DNA from: Phytohabitans houttuyneae
GTDB lineage: Bacteria; Actinomycetota; Actinomycetes; Mycobacteriales; Micromonosporaceae
Assembly: GCF_011764425.1 (NCBI RefSeq)
Contig: NZ_BLPF01000001.1
Location: forward strand, 2,967,001-3,031,000
Length of the DNA stretch: 64,000 nt
Direction: 5' to 3'
Positions 50,679 through 56,181 of this stretch are shown here, in pieces. The position numbers and the translations under genes were made by a program. Under the pieces are notes generated by a model, which was given only the letters and a program-made list of their open reading frames with translations, was not told where the DNA came from and searched no databases. How positions within the stretch are numbered: the first letter of the stretch is position 1; each line of letters opens with the position of its first letter.

Positions 50679-53192
50679 TCACCAACCGGCGCCGAAGCAC
50701 ACCAGCGGCGCCAGGTCCTCCTCGGCCTTGGCCGCGCTCTCGATTGCGGCCGCCAGCGCGGCGGCCGGTGACTCACCATCTCGCAGTGCCGCGTGGTGGG
50801 CCGGACCGACCTGGTAAGCGACCGCGTCGGCGATCCGCGCGACGCCGGCCACGACACTCCCCGCGCCGCCGTGCAGCAGTGCGGCGGTCATCCCCAGCGT
50901 CTCCTCGCCCGGCCGAGGCCGGGCGAGGCCCAACTCGCACGCCGACAGCACGATGTGCGCCGGCAGCCTCGGCAGCTGATGCAGCTCGTGGCCGAAGAGC
51001 GGCCCGTCGGCCAGCTCCAGGTGGGAGAAGAGCGGGTTGTCCGGCTCGTGCACACCGTGCGCGGCCACGTGCAGCACGTCCGCGGTGCGCGCCGCGTCGC
51101 GTACCCCCGCTGTGGTGGACTCCGCCGGCGAGTGCACCGACCACACCTCCGCGACCAGCCGCACCTCCTCCGCGGCCCGGGCCACCCGCGGGCCCGCGGC
51201 CAGCGCCAGCGTCGGCCGCGTCGGCAGCGCGGCCCGGTCGCGAGCGGCCAGCCACGCGGTCGCCGACGCCACGACCGCCAGCGGGCGCCCGCGCAGGGCT
51301 GGCAGGAGCGTCCACGGCACGGCCACGAGCCCGGCTGCCGGCGCCAGCAGCAGCGGCCCGTCGGCCAGGTGCCGCCGCAGCGGGTGCCAGAGCAGCTCGT
51401 CGAGGCGCTGCAGTGACCGCCGGCTCGCCGCCCGCACGCTGAGCCGCATCGGCTCCGGCAGGTTGAGCGTGGCGAGCGCGTCGAGGTCGGCGCGGACCCG
51501 GTGGAGCAGCTCGATGGCGGGCGCCGCCGGACCGAGATCGAGCAGTGCGCGCCGGCGCGGCCCGGCCACGAGCGCGTGCAGCCGGCCGCCCGAGAGAAGG
51601 TGCGCCACGTAGGTGGCGTCCGCGACCGCGAGCTGGTCCTGCACCTCGCCGAGCGGTGCGGGCGCGAGCGTCTGTCCCGGGCCCGGCGTGTACCAGGAGC
51701 GCTGCCGGATCAGCCGCTCCAGCTGGGCGCATCGGGTGCGCAACGCGGGCACGGGGTGGCCGGCGAGCACGGCGCCGCGCAGCTCGACGCGGAGGTGGCG
51801 CAGCTCCTCCAGCATGCCCGCGGCCTCGGGGTCGGTCGGCGGCACCACGGGAGGCAGGCGCGTGGAGAGTGCGCGGGCCCGCTCGGCCCAGCCGAAGACC
51901 GTCGCCGGCCGGCCGGTCGCCAGCGCGCGGGCCAGCCCCTGCTCGGCGAGGCGCCGGCCGTGGCCGCTGACCGCCGTCTGCAGGTCGAGGCTGCCGAACG
52001 ACGCCTGGTACCGGTGCAGGTCGGCGAGCGCGGCCCGCAGCTCGGCATCGGCCCGCCCCGGCAGGCCCTGCGCGTCGGCCAGCCTGGCCCGCACCGACCG
52101 CGCGGCGAGTCGCGTCGCGATCGGGTCGTCGCGGCGCAGGTTGATGGCGCCAGCGGCGGCGACCCGGATCTCCTCGACGCTCCCTTGTGGACGGATGGCG
52201 AGCAGCGCCGCGATCCCGGTCAGCGTGGCCCGGCGCGCCTCGTCGTCGAGGCCCGCACTGGCCAGCTCGGCGGCCACCCGGGCGGCGTCGCCGGCGACCG
52301 ACCGCATCCCGCGCCCCCGCTCCACGGCGGCCGCGAGGGCGATGTGCTGCGCGAGCAGCGTCCACGCGTCGGCACCGCGGGCGGCGAAGCGCTTGCGGGC
52401 CCGCTCGGCGAGCCGCCGCGCGTCCGGGTACCGCTCCTCCAGCAGCGCGACCTGCGCCCGGGCCAGCTCGGCCTCGGCCTGGTCCTGTGGCGCCCGAGCG
52501 CCGCGAAACAGGTCGACCGCGTGGGCGAGGTCGTCGTCGGCCTCCCGCCACAGGCCGGCCGCGAGCAGCACCTGCGCGCGGTCGATGTAGTAGACCGCCG
52601 CATACATCGGGGACTGGCTGCTCAGCGTGGACTGGACGGTGTCCATCTCGCGCAGGGCCCGGGGCAGCGCGCCGGAAAGCAGGTAGAGGTAGCCGAGGTT
52701 GTGCGCCGCCTTGGCCGCGAGCATGTCCAGGCCGTGCCGGCCGGCGACGTCGATGCACCGGCGGAAGTCGGCCCGCGCCGCGGCCAGCACACCCCGCTGC
52801 ATGTGCAGGATGCCCCGGTTGAGCAGCGGCCGGCAGATGTCTTCGGGCTCCGACTCGTCCAGCAGGCTCACCGCCGCGTCGAGCGCGGCCAGCGCGTCGG
52901 GCGACCGCCCGGCACGCATGTAGAGGAGCCCTCGCTGCGCGGCGACCATGCCGCGCAGGCGCGCCGGCAGGTCGACCACCTCGTCGGCCTCACCGAGCAG
53001 GGCGAGCCCTTCGTCGAGGCTGTGCCGCTCGGCCTGGTGGTAGGCGAGGCTGATCAGGATCCGGGCGCGCAGGCCGGGCTCGGGGTCGCGGCGCAGCGCG
53101 GTGTGCAGCAACCGCCGAGCTGCGGCGTGCCGTCCGCGCTCGGTTTCCCGTACGGACTGGGCGTGCAGCTCGGCGGCGCTGGCAACGGGCAC
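50679..53192 (-). CDS. TPR-CHAT protease (caspase-like peptidase), 837 aa
   Basis: The N-terminal 430 residues or so are helical repeats of TPR type (LHTALRRDPEPGLRARILIS, AAKAAHNLGYLYLLSGALPR). A linker with LLEERYPDARRLAERARKR-like helices leads to a CHAT domain in the last 300 residues, with catalytic His712 (LHVAAHG) and Cys752 (VLSACELG). CHAT domains are caspase-clan (CD) cysteine proteases: separase relatives, and effectors of bacterial gasdermin and type III-E CRISPR defence. No signal peptide is present. It is the last gene of the sigma/subtilase operon, 72 bases after the subtilase stop, starting at GTG. Confidence 0.88.
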   Translation of the reverse strand: MPVASAAELHAQSVRETERGRHAAARRLLHTALRRDPEPGLRARILISLAYHQAERHSLDEGLALLGEADEVVDLPARLRGMVAAQRGLLYMRAGRSPDALAALDAAVSLLDESEPEDICRPLLNRGILHMQRGVLAAARADFRRCIDVAGRHGLDMLAAKAAHNLGYLYLLSGALPRALREMDTVQSTLSSQSPMYAAVYYIDRAQVLLAAGLWREADDDLAHAVDLFRGARAPQDQAEAELARAQVALLEERYPDARRLAERARKRFAARGADAWTLLAQHIALAAAVERGRGMRSVAGDAARVAAELASAGLDDEARRATLTGIAALLAIRPQGSVEEIRVAAAGAINLRRDDPIATRLAARSVRARLADAQGLPGRADAELRAALADLHRYQASFGSLDLQTAVSGHGRRLAEQGLARALATGRPATVFGWAERARALSTRLPPVVPPTDPEAAGMLEELRHLRVELRGAVLAGHPVPALRTRCAQLERLIRQRSWYTPGPGQTLAPAPLGEVQDQLAVADATYVAHLLSGGRLHALVAGPRRRALLDLGPAAPAIELLHRVRADLDALATLNLPEPMRLSVRAASRRSLQRLDELLWHPLRRHLADGPLLLAPAAGLVAVPWTLLPALRGRPLAVVASATAWLAARDRAALPTRPTLALAAGPRVARAAEEVRLVAEVWSVHSPAESTTAGVRDAARTADVLHVAAHGVHEPDNPLFSHLELADGPLFGHELHQLPRLPAHIVLSACELGLARPRPGEETLGMTAALLHGGAGSVVAGVARIADAVAYQVGPAHHAALRDGESPAAALAAAIESAAKAEEDLAPLVCFGAGW

Positions 53193-53264
53193 GCCCCATC
53201 ATGGCACGGCGACCCGCGACCCCGACTCGACCGATGATCCGGGGTTGTCGGTGCTCCCCTTCGC

Positions 53265-54773
53265 TTACGGCTGCTGCGGGTGCAGCGACTCGATCGCCCG
53301 CTTCATGCGCTTGACCGGGTCGCTCTCGCTCATCATCAGCGACGCGACCCCGTTGGAGGCGATCAGCGCCTTGGCGATGCGGCCGGCCAGGATCGGCGCG
53401 GCGAACGAGGTGCCGCTGGAGATCGCGAACCCGCCGCCGAAGTCGTCCGGGTCGATGTTTTCCCGGCTCACCCCGGCAAACGGGTCCGTGTACGCCGCGC
53501 CGGCACCCATCGCGTGGTCGAACCTCGGCATCGTGCTCACCACGGCAGCGCCCGGCGCCCAGTGGTGGACCCACTGCCCGGTGTTGCTGAACAGCGCGAT
53601 CGTGCCGTTGGGGTTGAGCGCGCCCACACTGGACACCGGCACGACGGGGGTGTCGACGCCCTGGGGCGGCGCCGCGTACGCCGCGGGGAACATCGGCCGC
53701 GCTGTCGCGTCGTTGCCGGCCGCGGCCACGACGGCCACACCGAGCTCGGCGAGGTCGCGGATCTCCTCGTAGAGCAGCGACATGTACGCGTCGTCGTCCG
53801 CTGACTCGTGGTAGAAGCCCAGCGAAAGCGAGATCACGTCGATCGCCTGGCCACCCGCCTCGCCGGCGGCAAACTTGCGGGCCAGCTCCTTGAGCGCCTG
53901 CAGGGCCGCGAGCAGCTCGGACTCGACGATCACGCCGTCGGAGTGGATCACCCGGACCGGCAGGATGTCGGCGTCCGGGCAGGTCTGCCGGACCAGCCCG
54001 CAGATGAACGTGCCGTGCCCGGCCAGCGGGTCGCGCATGCCGTCGAGCGGCCCGACCACGTCGCCGGTCGTGTCCAGCGCCGTGCCCGTGTCGCCACCGC
54101 CGAGCGCGTTGATCGGCGTCAGCATGCCGTCGGTGAACCAGTCGTGCTCCCCGCAACCCGTGTCGAGGACGGCGACCACCGGACGCCGCGGCGCCACGGT
54201 CGCCTGCCGTGCCGGGATCGGCAGCACAAGGTTGACCGGTTGGGTGGCGCCGAAGCCGAGCATGCCGTACTGCGCGACGGGGCCGAACGGGAACGCCGAG
54301 TGGTAAGGGAAGGCGGAGTGGTACGGGAACGCGGAGTGGTAGGGAAACGCCGAGTGGTACGGGAACGCCGAGTGGTACGGGCTGGCGGTGATCGGCGCGG
54401 TGGTCGCGAACATCAGGTGGTCGAGGCCGGCGCCGAGCGTGCGCAGCCGGCCGGAGTCCTTGGCACGCAGCGCCTGCAGCATGCGCCACGCGTCGGGCGT
54501 CGCCGGACCGCCGTTGCCCGGCGTGAGGCGCATGCAGCGGTCACCCTCGGCCGGGTCGTCGAGCCGGAGCTGGAGCCCCGCCGCCACCTCGTTGAGCACG
54601 CGGCGGTGGTCGCTCACGCCCTGGCGGCGCATCAGCAGCCGGTTGGCGACGTAGACGGTGGACTGAAGTCGCTGGTCGGGCAGCACCTGGGCCGCGACGG
54701 GGTCGAGGGCCCGTGCGCCGTACGCCGCGAGGAGCGCCGGCGGCGGTGTCGGGACATGGTTGTTGCTGGCCAC
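53265..54773 (-). CDS. Cytoplasmic S8 (subtilisin-like) peptidase, 502 aa
   Basis: The protein lacks a signal peptide. An N-terminal domain of about 130 residues and five tandem PYHSAF units (about 132-161) precede a subtilase domain with Asp204 (AVLDTGCG), His253 (GHGTFICG), oxyanion Asn354 (AAGN) and Ser456 (SGTSFAAP). All catalytic residues are present, so activity is expected, probably inside the cell and tightly controlled. GTG 54773 has GGGAG eight bases upstream. It lies between the small beta-domain protein and the CHAT protease in one operon led by an ECF sigma gene. Confidence 0.88.
   Translation of the reverse strand: MASNNHVPTPPPALLAAYGARALDPVAAQVLPDQRLQSTVYVANRLLMRRQGVSDHRRVLNEVAAGLQLRLDDPAEGDRCMRLTPGNGGPATPDAWRMLQALRAKDSGRLRTLGAGLDHLMFATTAPITASPYHSAFPYHSAFPYHSAFPYHSAFPYHSAFPFGPVAQYGMLGFGATQPVNLVLPIPARQATVAPRRPVVAVLDTGCGEHDWFTDGMLTPINALGGGDTGTALDTTGDVVGPLDGMRDPLAGHGTFICGLVRQTCPDADILPVRVIHSDGVIVESELLAALQALKELARKFAAGEAGGQAIDVISLSLGFYHESADDDAYMSLLYEEIRDLAELGVAVVAAAGNDATARPMFPAAYAAPPQGVDTPVVPVSSVGALNPNGTIALFSNTGQWVHHWAPGAAVVSTMPRFDHAMGAGAAYTDPFAGVSRENIDPDDFGGGFAISSGTSFAAPILAGRIAKALIASNGVASLMMSESDPVKRMKRAIESLHPQQP
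54291..54380. repeat. Five 18-bp tandem repeats encoding PYHSAF
   Basis: Units at 54291, 54309, 54327, 54345 and 54363 follow the pattern GAACGCCGAGTGGTACGG with one to three substitutions each, mostly in third codon positions. On the minus strand they encode five identical hexapeptides in the linker between the N-terminal and catalytic domains of the subtilase. Synonymous differences with conserved protein show selection on the peptide. Confidence 0.9.
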
Positions 54774-54800
54774 GATTAACTCCCACGGAAGAGGTCGGGG

Positions 54801-55268
54801 CTAAAGCTGCACCGGCGGTGTCACCACCGGGCGGTGCAGGGAGACCGTCGCCCCGGTCGTCGGATGGATCATGATCTGCACCAGGCCGGACGGCACCTCC
54901 GCGAAAGCGAACCGCCCGTCGTCGTCGGCCTGGGTCTCGTGCACACCTCGCGGAGTGCGCAGCTCGACCCGCAGCGCGCCGCCTGGTGCGATCCAACCGT
55001 CGATTCGGCGCCGCTGCGGTCCCGAATCCGACACGGTCACCATCACAGTGAGGCTTTCCGCCGAAAAGGTGACCGTCGACGCGGTCTCCGGGCCACGCGC
55101 ACCAGCCGGCTGGAGAGCCTCTTGCAGCCGCATGAGCTCGAATTCCAGGTCTTCCAACCGCAGCGTGAAAAGCACGCGGTCGGCCAGGTCCACGGGCGGC
55201 GGATCCAATGTGTCGTACATGTCATGGACCGCACGCAACAGCGTCAGGTCGTCAGTCACGCCGGTCAC
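54801..55268 (-). CDS. Small protein with helical N-terminus and CarboxypepD_reg/transthyretin-like domain
   Basis: The 155-residue protein has a helical N-terminal part (LTLLRAVHDMYDTLDPPPVD, LRLEDLEFELMRLQEAL) and a beta-sandwich of about 85 residues with the RIDGWIAPGGALRVELRTPR and DDDGRFAFAEVPSGLVQIMI motifs of carboxypeptidase-regulatory-like domains. No signal peptide is present. GTG 55268 overlaps the sigma stop by 17 bases; GTG 55259 is also possible. Being encoded between the sigma factor and the protease, it may bind and control either one (inference). Confidence 0.7.
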   Translation of the reverse strand: MTGVTDDLTLLRAVHDMYDTLDPPPVDLADRVLFTLRLEDLEFELMRLQEALQPAGARGPETASTVTFSAESLTVMVTVSDSGPQRRRIDGWIAPGGALRVELRTPRGVHETQADDDGRFAFAEVPSGLVQIMIHPTTGATVSLHRPVVTPPVQL

Positions 55269-55860
55269 TCCACTCCGGATCGGCGGCCAGCAGGCCGCGT
55301 AGCTTGTCGAGGCAGCGCCCCCGGGTCGGACCGATGCTGCCCACCGCGATCCCCAGCTCGGTGGAGAGCGAGGCGTAGTCCGGCCGGTCCTCGAACGCGA
55401 TCACCCGCAGCAGCCGCCGGCAACGCTCGGGCAGCTCCGCGATGTGGCGCCACAGGGTGTGGGCGGTGCGCTCGGCCAGCACCGTGGTGTCCGGCCCGCC
55501 CACCGGGGGTAGCGCCGCGTCGAGGGTCTGCGGCTCCGCCACGTCCACCCGCTTGCCGGCACGGGCGGTGCGCCACGCCTCGCGGCGCGCGGTGGTCGTC
55601 GTCCACCGGAGCACCGCCTGCGGGTCGCGCACCGAGTCCACATTGCGCACCAGGGCCAGCCAGGTCGTCTGCACCACGTCTTCGGCCGACTCACGATCGA
55701 GCCCATAAGCCCGGACAAGGTGCCACAACACCGGCGTCAGCAGCCGGACCAGCCGGTCCAGCGCCGCCGGGTCACCGGCCCGCCACGCGGCGAACTCGCG
55801 CGCTGCCACCTCCCAGGAGGTCGTGCCGACACCGGTGTCGTCAGAAGTCGCCGATGTCAT
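55252..55860 (-). CDS. ECF-type sigma factor of the subtilase/CHAT operon
   Basis: The 202-residue protein has sigma region 2 (AYGLDRESAEDVVQTTWLAL, ALVRNVDSVRDPQAVLRWTT) and region 4 (about 140-190, LPERCRRLLRVIAFEDRPDY, YASLSTELGIAVGSIGPTRG). A GGGAGGTG ribosome site lies five bases before ATG 55860. It is the first gene of a four-gene operon with overlapping or short junctions. No recognisable membrane anti-sigma factor is encoded, so control may be through the small protein or by proteolysis. Confidence 0.88.
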   Translation of the reverse strand: MTSATSDDTGVGTTSWEVAAREFAAWRAGDPAALDRLVRLLTPVLWHLVRAYGLDRESAEDVVQTTWLALVRNVDSVRDPQAVLRWTTTTARREAWRTARAGKRVDVAEPQTLDAALPPVGGPDTTVLAERTAHTLWRHIAELPERCRRLLRVIAFEDRPDYASLSTELGIAVGSIGPTRGRCLDKLRGLLAADPEWSDRRD

Positions 55861-56181
55861 CGCACCTCCCTCTTACCCGTCGCCTGCCGCCAGGGCAGGG
55901 CCTGACCTGCACCCCAACACACTGCGCCATCGTAGGTGGATTTCGATATCACCCAGGCGACAGTGCGCCGCGCACAAGGGAGGAGGTGATCAAAGTCGCG
56001 CTGATACCTCGGCGACAAAAGAAATTATCCGTGTATCACGGGCGCTCTTGGACGCTCCTCTACCCGGACTTCACAGAGCCGCGAGGTGCATGGGGGTGCA
56101 CCGAGCGGCCCGCTCCCCCTCTGGGGCTGGGGGAGGGACGGCGGGGGTGCTTCCCGGGGGATGCACCCCCGCTGCGTTCCC
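55861..56181. other. Intergenic region upstream of the sigma/subtilase/CHAT operon
   Basis: No convincing gene is present in these 321 bases. The part next to the sigma start should contain the operon promoter. The distal part is G/C-run rich: it has the hairpin at 56113-56135, and GGGGGTGCA (56091-56099) can pair with TGCACCCCC (56162-56170) around it, forming a long imperfect stem downstream of the STAS gene. Confidence 0.5.
56113..56135. terminator. Terminator after the STAS gene
   Basis: CTCCCCC and GGGGGAG pair across a 9-base loop, 47 bases downstream of the STAS stop codon, enclosed by the longer 56091/56162 pairing. Confidence 0.6.

Follow-up and report, generated by a model that had tools for sequence, protein, structure and literature searches.

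Arrays of identical short peptides at the predicted activation junction of a subtilase in an ECF54-type actinobacterial operon

Proteolytic control has been proposed for the ECF54 group of extracytoplasmic function (ECF) sigma factors, since the sigma gene has conserved neighbours that encode carboxypeptidase, subtilase and CHAT proteins (PMC8999054, a 2022 review citing Casas-Pastor 2021 and Huang 2015 for this group). The account of ECF54 in that review contains no experiment on this gene context, and the mechanism is so far a proposal. Among working systems, the type III-E CRISPR protease offers the closest precedent; it is described as a tetratricopeptide repeat (TPR)-CHAT enzyme that cuts the inhibitor of an ECF sigma factor (PMC10028731). 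Here we analyse an operon of Phytohabitans houttuyneae that lies in a 64,000-nucleotide stretch of contig NZ_BLPF01000001.1 (assembly GCF_011764425.1, positions 2,967,001 to 3,031,000), the whole of which is called the window. The operon encodes an ECF sigma factor, a protein of 155 amino acids (aa), a subtilase and a TPR-CHAT protease, and we assign it to the ECF54 type by its gene context: as in the reviewed group, the neighbours of an ECF sigma factor are a subtilase, a CHAT protein and a protein of carboxypeptidase type. Between a predicted prodomain and the catalytic domain, the subtilase carries an array of identical short peptides, a feature that the initial annotation had overlooked. 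The operon appears to be of a known kind and its junction array to be new. Prodomain, junction array, promoter motif and RNA are absent from the ECF54 account in PMC8999054, and the array would offer a handle on the proposed mechanism. No description of the array was found in the literature searched, a remark in the two primary ECF54 papers remaining possible. The initial annotation knew of no experimental description of the exact four-gene set; for experimental work this stands in the literature searched, whereas the gene context is already in print as ECF54 (PMC8999054).

The subtilase (502 aa; 53268-54773, minus strand) would be a cytoplasmic zymogen. According to its predicted structure and to structure comparison, the N-terminal domain models as a subtilisin prodomain with a beta-alpha-beta-beta-alpha-beta fold, covering approximately residues 36-124 (54402-54668, minus strand). 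We take the end of this domain to be given by the alignment of DH118-119 with the end of the subtilisin prodomain. The catalytic alignment begins near residue 182, and about 57 residues, including the array, lie between the presumed prodomain end and the core. At E 5, 48 members matched 20 Pfam families, none of them a propeptide family. Model and alignment suggest the layout of a zymogen, consisting of prodomain, junction insert and catalytic domain, and the prodomain fold predicted ahead of the catalytic domain would place the enzyme among prodomain subtilases. It differs from pro-subtilisins and PCSK9 in its junction of about 57 residues with an array and in its presumably cytoplasmic location; we know of no array in Plasmodium SUB1 either. 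A likeness to SUB1 and plasmepsin X may be proposed, since one protease is described there as activating a subtilase via its prodomain (PMC10128010), although that system is eukaryotic and exported and involves another protease class. Because the window subtilase looks like a zymogen, the suggestion of the initial annotation that one protease of the operon activates the other may be regarded as reasonable.

In the window, the array comprises five PYHSAF units (residues 132-161; 54291-54380, minus strand), five differing DNA copies encoding one peptide. Tandem Repeats Finder delimits it at 54287-54381, with period 18 and 5.3 copies. Relatives carry other arrays in the same place, between prodomain and catalytic aspartate: NPYHSG x4, NPFHAS x6, NPFTRT x3-5, GYGDGV x7, PYTDPH x6 and NPFKA x7 are examples, and most junction inserts contain 3-12 copies of one short peptide. 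At least three whole tandem copies were detected in 86 of 109 S8 open reading frames (ORFs) of the loci fetched, a set dereplicated by identical last 280 residues only, in which close relatives remain and some members lie outside this operon type. Some array was called in 92 of the 109, six of which have fewer than three whole copies under the strict finder. Applied to 327 stretches from elsewhere in these proteins and to 109 shuffled linkers, the same finder called none. Within the same genomes, arrays were found in four of four ECF54-type S8 proteins and in none of 11 others, which is a small control (30 loci fetched, 15 distinct ORFs past the motif filter; L185 (= L049, G050) counted as ECF54-type). 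The arrays comprise 66 distinct units, most commonly of the form [NH]-P-[YF]-x-x-[TGSP], and have period 6 in 70 of 86 cases. Proline is present in 82 of 86 units and cysteine in none of the 66; tyrosine or phenylalanine follows proline in 35 of the 52 distinct six-residue units.

Peptide copies are all identical in 77 of the 86 arrays, yet each of these 77 is encoded by two or more DNA versions. The pooled proportion of synonymous differences within arrays (pS) is 0.498, that of nonsynonymous differences (pN) 0.0113. Synonymous codon difference between copies amounts to 0.378, as compared with 0.426 expected for independent draws from the same gene. The copies are nearly codon-scrambled, whereas recent slippage would leave identical DNA copies. 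This codon analysis shows that selection keeps the array peptides identical copy by copy. Convergent origin of the copies was also considered and rejected: of 30 unit positions occupied by serine throughout, only 4 combine AGY with TCN codons, and since such mixing is rare, the copies arose mainly by duplication with subsequent synonymous change. Between loci, the unit distance is 0.086 for 57 close pairs, versus 0.18-0.30 for other operon parts, and rises to 0.64 for 942 distant pairs, similar to the other parts; the unit is thus held within clades and replaced between them. Two Micropruina records, with PVWEPH x4 and PMWEPH x4, differ in all copies. Identical peptides over nearly scrambled codons, replaced wholesale between clades, form an unusual pattern that points to a specific receptor.

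All four genes lie on the minus strand, in the single direction described by the initial annotation; the 155-aa gene overlaps the sigma gene, and short gaps precede the subtilase and TPR-CHAT genes. The first gene (55255-55860) encodes the sigma factor of 202 aa, which matches Sigma70_r2 at 6.5e-10 and TIGR02937 (sigma70-ECF) at 3.4e-14, above the cut-off for the ECF superfamily. The 155-aa protein (54804-55268) was modelled by AlphaFold as two N-terminal helices and a 7-strand beta sandwich (predicted local distance difference test, pLDDT, 87.9), and D22, P25, R58, D90-G91-W92, G118 and T150-P151 are invariant in 35 sequences. The caspase-like TPR-CHAT protease (837 aa; 50682-53192) matches CHAT at 3.6e-23. 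As had been claimed, catalytic residues are intact in both enzymes: D204, H253, N354 and S456 in the subtilase, H712 and C752 in the TPR-CHAT protein, where these two and H708, D789 and H800 are 100% conserved among 64 aligned sequences. Type III-E loci with Csx29, Csx30 and CASP-sigma, as described, likewise unite a TPR-CHAT protease, an ECF sigma factor and a regulator. Unlike them, the window locus has no CRISPR effector among ten neighbouring ORFs searched with PADLOC, and a putative subtilase zymogen stands instead. With 24.6 bits against a cut-off of 300 in the Csx29 model NF041237, the TPR-CHAT protein is not a member of that family, and no Csx30 chain that might speak for a Csx30-like origin of the 155-aa protein was found among the 50 matches listed for it (Foldseek, VIA-align).

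Synteny was examined in 80 named actinobacterial loci, some truncated by contig ends, which had been fetched via patterns of the subtilase catalytic domain; these lie outside the array, so that array presence was not selected for. All four genes are present in 71 of the 80, which corresponds to the ECF54 context, with the carboxypeptidase-like match of the window protein (CarboxypepD_reg) at just E 0.014. Complete loci have the order sigma-small-subtilase-CHAT or subtilase-sigma-small-CHAT; of the others, three lack a CHAT match and three a small-protein match, two have subtilase and CHAT only and one subtilase only. Of 200 genomes of the order, 59, among them that of the window, have a match to the 155-aa protein at E 0.001. 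Among 20 stretches then fetched, 19 of them chosen by this match, the sigma factor was matched in 20, CHAT in 17, the 155-aa protein in 15 and the subtilase in 13, with all four genes in 10. A search of 394 genomes of the class at E 1e-25, with no more than three candidates scored per genome, located the subtilase in 28, counting that of the window. Synteny thus shows that the sigma factor and the 155-aa protein are inherited together with two cytoplasmic proteases. Together with the promoter-like motif before the sigma gene (see below), it bears out the earlier view of a conserved protease pair tied to its own sigma factor, and the check for conserved synteny that the initial annotation had called for came out in its favour.

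Our preferred reading, which we put forward tentatively, is that the array serves as a multivalent recognition tag at the activation junction of a cytoplasmic zymogen, where docking of a partner and cutting would free the subtilase and reset the operon. The partner, for which the TPR part of the CHAT protease is the likeliest candidate, would bind to the repeats, and a cut within or close to the junction would release the subtilase from its prodomain. Active subtilase, the CHAT protease or both would then remove the 155-aa protein or the sigma factor, and this removal would reset operon transcription from a TATCA-N16-CTCC promoter. The direction of this cascade is one that we infer. If the receptor is indeed the TPR-CHAT protein, a two-protease activation cascade would operate in common actinobacteria. 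The partner was approached by comparing unit distance with the distances of six operon parts, other parts being held fixed (partial Mantel test). Across 49 loci, the TPR part gives r=0.189 (p about 0.013) and the 155-aa protein 0.135 (p about 0.017), the other four parts being not significant; this distance correlation may be taken as a hint of a TPR partner. In a few proteins (L136, L068 and L076) the motif core occurs with irregular spacing or altered spacers, as would be expected of a linear motif rather than of a repeat fold.

Several observations weigh against the tag. After thinning to 31 loci the TPR signal weakens to r=0.133 (p=0.059), and the 155-aa protein gives a similarly weak signal (0.094, p=0.103). 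No array was called in 17 of the 109 S8 ORFs, including both loci fetched from the window's own family (L047, L048), although in several of these ORFs the motif occurs singly or at irregular intervals. In three of the 20 fetched stretches (L045, L046, L052) the sigma factor, 155-aa protein and TPR-CHAT protein occur with no subtilase match, and the subtilase may be dispensable or located elsewhere in some lineages. The model shows the window array as disordered (pLDDT about 35), and its role is not visible there. Finally, 43 of the 66 units are without lysine or arginine, 50 are without aspartate or glutamate, and no residue is common to all 66. A single protease of fixed specificity is therefore unlikely to cut every array at one and the same residue or to read them all, and the array reader probably differs between clades. 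A narrower form of the cascade, possible but doubtful, would employ a clade-specific peptide code: each array would be read only by its own TPR-CHAT or 155-aa partner, the two changing together between clades while selection keeps the copies identical.

A somewhat unlikely alternative follows the ECF54 proposal, in which the sigma factor, or the 155-aa protein as its inhibitor, is the target of the proteases, which so keep the system off or on, the array serving another contact, for instance with the 155-aa protein. Besides the statement in the review (PMC8999054), the precedent of Craspase and the partial Mantel value of the 155-aa protein in the 49 loci agree with it, as does gene order, since the 155-aa gene overlaps the sigma gene in the window and adjoins it in all 74 of the 80 named loci that show both. 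By itself it leaves the array unexplained, and the 155-aa protein has no known anti-sigma domain. No known anti-sigma family was recognised in this protein, the product of the gene after sigma, in Pfam or NCBIfam, as is also the case for ECF54, although a new kind remains conceivable. We regard the 155-aa protein as a candidate sigma partner or substrate.

The array could also be a mere flexible spacer between prodomain and catalytic domain, with repeats that arose by DNA slippage and carry no information. Its disorder in the model, the small residues and proline common in its units, and the differing copy number among relatives (PYGSTN x6 and x8) are what a spacer would show. Yet the DNA copies are near independent codon draws while the peptides stay identical, an aromatic residue after proline is unexpectedly frequent, and units are better conserved within clades than other operon parts; we consider a spacer unlikely. 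Receptors of the RRNPP type sense short peptides, and the array might accordingly be a self-processing precursor, cut by its own subtilase to free short peptides of one sequence that would signal, inside the cell or after export, to the TPR domain. Identical tandem peptides at a protease junction, their clade-specific sequence and the TPR neighbour would suit such a role, which is nevertheless quite improbable: a crude hydropathy check found no export signal, the units have no residue in common, and close species often carry the same unit, which does not agree with a fast-changing identity signal.

CHAT proteases serve with bacterial gasdermins. An anti-phage or cell-death module, which the use of CHAT proteases in type III-E CRISPR (PMC10028731) and a weak IetS-like score of the subtilase might suggest, is highly improbable, since scores fall far under the IetS and Csx29 cut-offs (12.4 bits versus 900 in the IetS model NF042956), neighbours have no convincing defence match, no plasmid match was found at E 1e-40 among 72,556 records, and the viral collection gave one remote match (24%, E 4e-8). 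In PADLOC the CHAT protein had no match, and the subtilase had two weak ones (subtilase 4e-8, IetS 0.0014). Five of the ten neighbouring ORFs match only mad2, mad3, mad8, AriA or CARF3, and five match nothing; we read these matches as shared methyltransferase, ATPase and helix-turn-helix parts, those to CARF3 spanning some 45 residues towards the end of two proteins that resemble regulators. The phage-defence role and defence-island neighbours contemplated by the initial annotation thus received no support from PADLOC, neighbours, plasmid or viral collections.

Some variants of the locus were noted. The genome of the window has a second locus (L058; G000 contig 3, 1569000-1581000) with subtilase, TPR-CHAT and ECF sigma genes rearranged and no peptide array. 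L039 and L042 are operons with two subtilases and two TPR-CHAT genes, in which one subtilase has a 12- or 13-residue repeat and the other a single motif. The window subtilase is 50% identical to that of L060, from another family, and 46% to that of L087 (Nocardioides jensenii); identity to the two same-family loci fetched, which are without array, is 33-37%. This greater closeness to other families hints at horizontal transfer. At least one flanking homologue is common to 156 of 465 Microbacterium pairs and 28 of 36 Nocardioides pairs, rough figures from ORFs picked by a GC filter.

Upstream of the sigma operon and directed towards it, a promoter-like site GTATCA-N16-CTCC is located at 55982-56007 (minus strand), its promoter role being putative; a second, divergent site lies at 56033-56058 (plus strand), separated from the first by 25 bases. 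In related loci, GTAT-18-CTCC precedes the sigma gene in 23 of 43 regions, thinned from 59 by k-mer similarity, whereas in 20 shuffles, which moved two-base blocks, the best dyad reached 7-10. The strict motif (TATCA, 15-17 bases, CTCC) occurs within 330 bp before the sigma gene in 41 of 73 loci, directly after CHAT in 28 of 70 and at both places in 21; the spacer has 16 bases in 64 of these 69 sites. In total, the 80 loci contain 89 matches, 20 of them elsewhere. Controls gave 1 and 2 matches with the first box permuted, 4 with both boxes reversed, 5 with boxes swapped and 7 with the second box altered. With TATCA kept and the second box shifted (TATCA-CCTC), 32 matches were obtained, probably because the first box itself is common at these sites. 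When up to two mismatches were allowed, 54 of 73 upstream regions had a match, versus 2.45 of 73 random stretches. In the whole genome of the window the motif and its reversed control have 7 matches each, so that apart from the two window sites nothing exceeds chance. The motif provides a way to search for the regulon.

The divergent window site is followed by a strong hairpin at about 56100-56180. The region 56033-56180 has no convincing gene on the plus strand and folds at -84 kcal/mol over 140 nt, a value given without shuffle control; the site is a candidate start of a non-coding RNA. In Rfam, the promoter region of the window matched mir-343 and g2, both below threshold. In 12 loci, 11 of Microbacterium and one of Microbacteriaceae (L119 12210-12400, L127 12249-12439, L129 12215-12405 and nine more), the post-CHAT site is followed by a conserved structured segment of some 150 bases with a hairpin at its end. 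In the three loci searched, it matched no Rfam family at E 1. Its covariance model gave E <1e-20 only in the 12 source sequences, other matches being weak (E >=0.048) or on the opposite strand of the same segments. Nine of the 31 predicted pairs show two-sided changes, with a covariation term of only -0.82, and the segment is possibly a sigma-dependent RNA.

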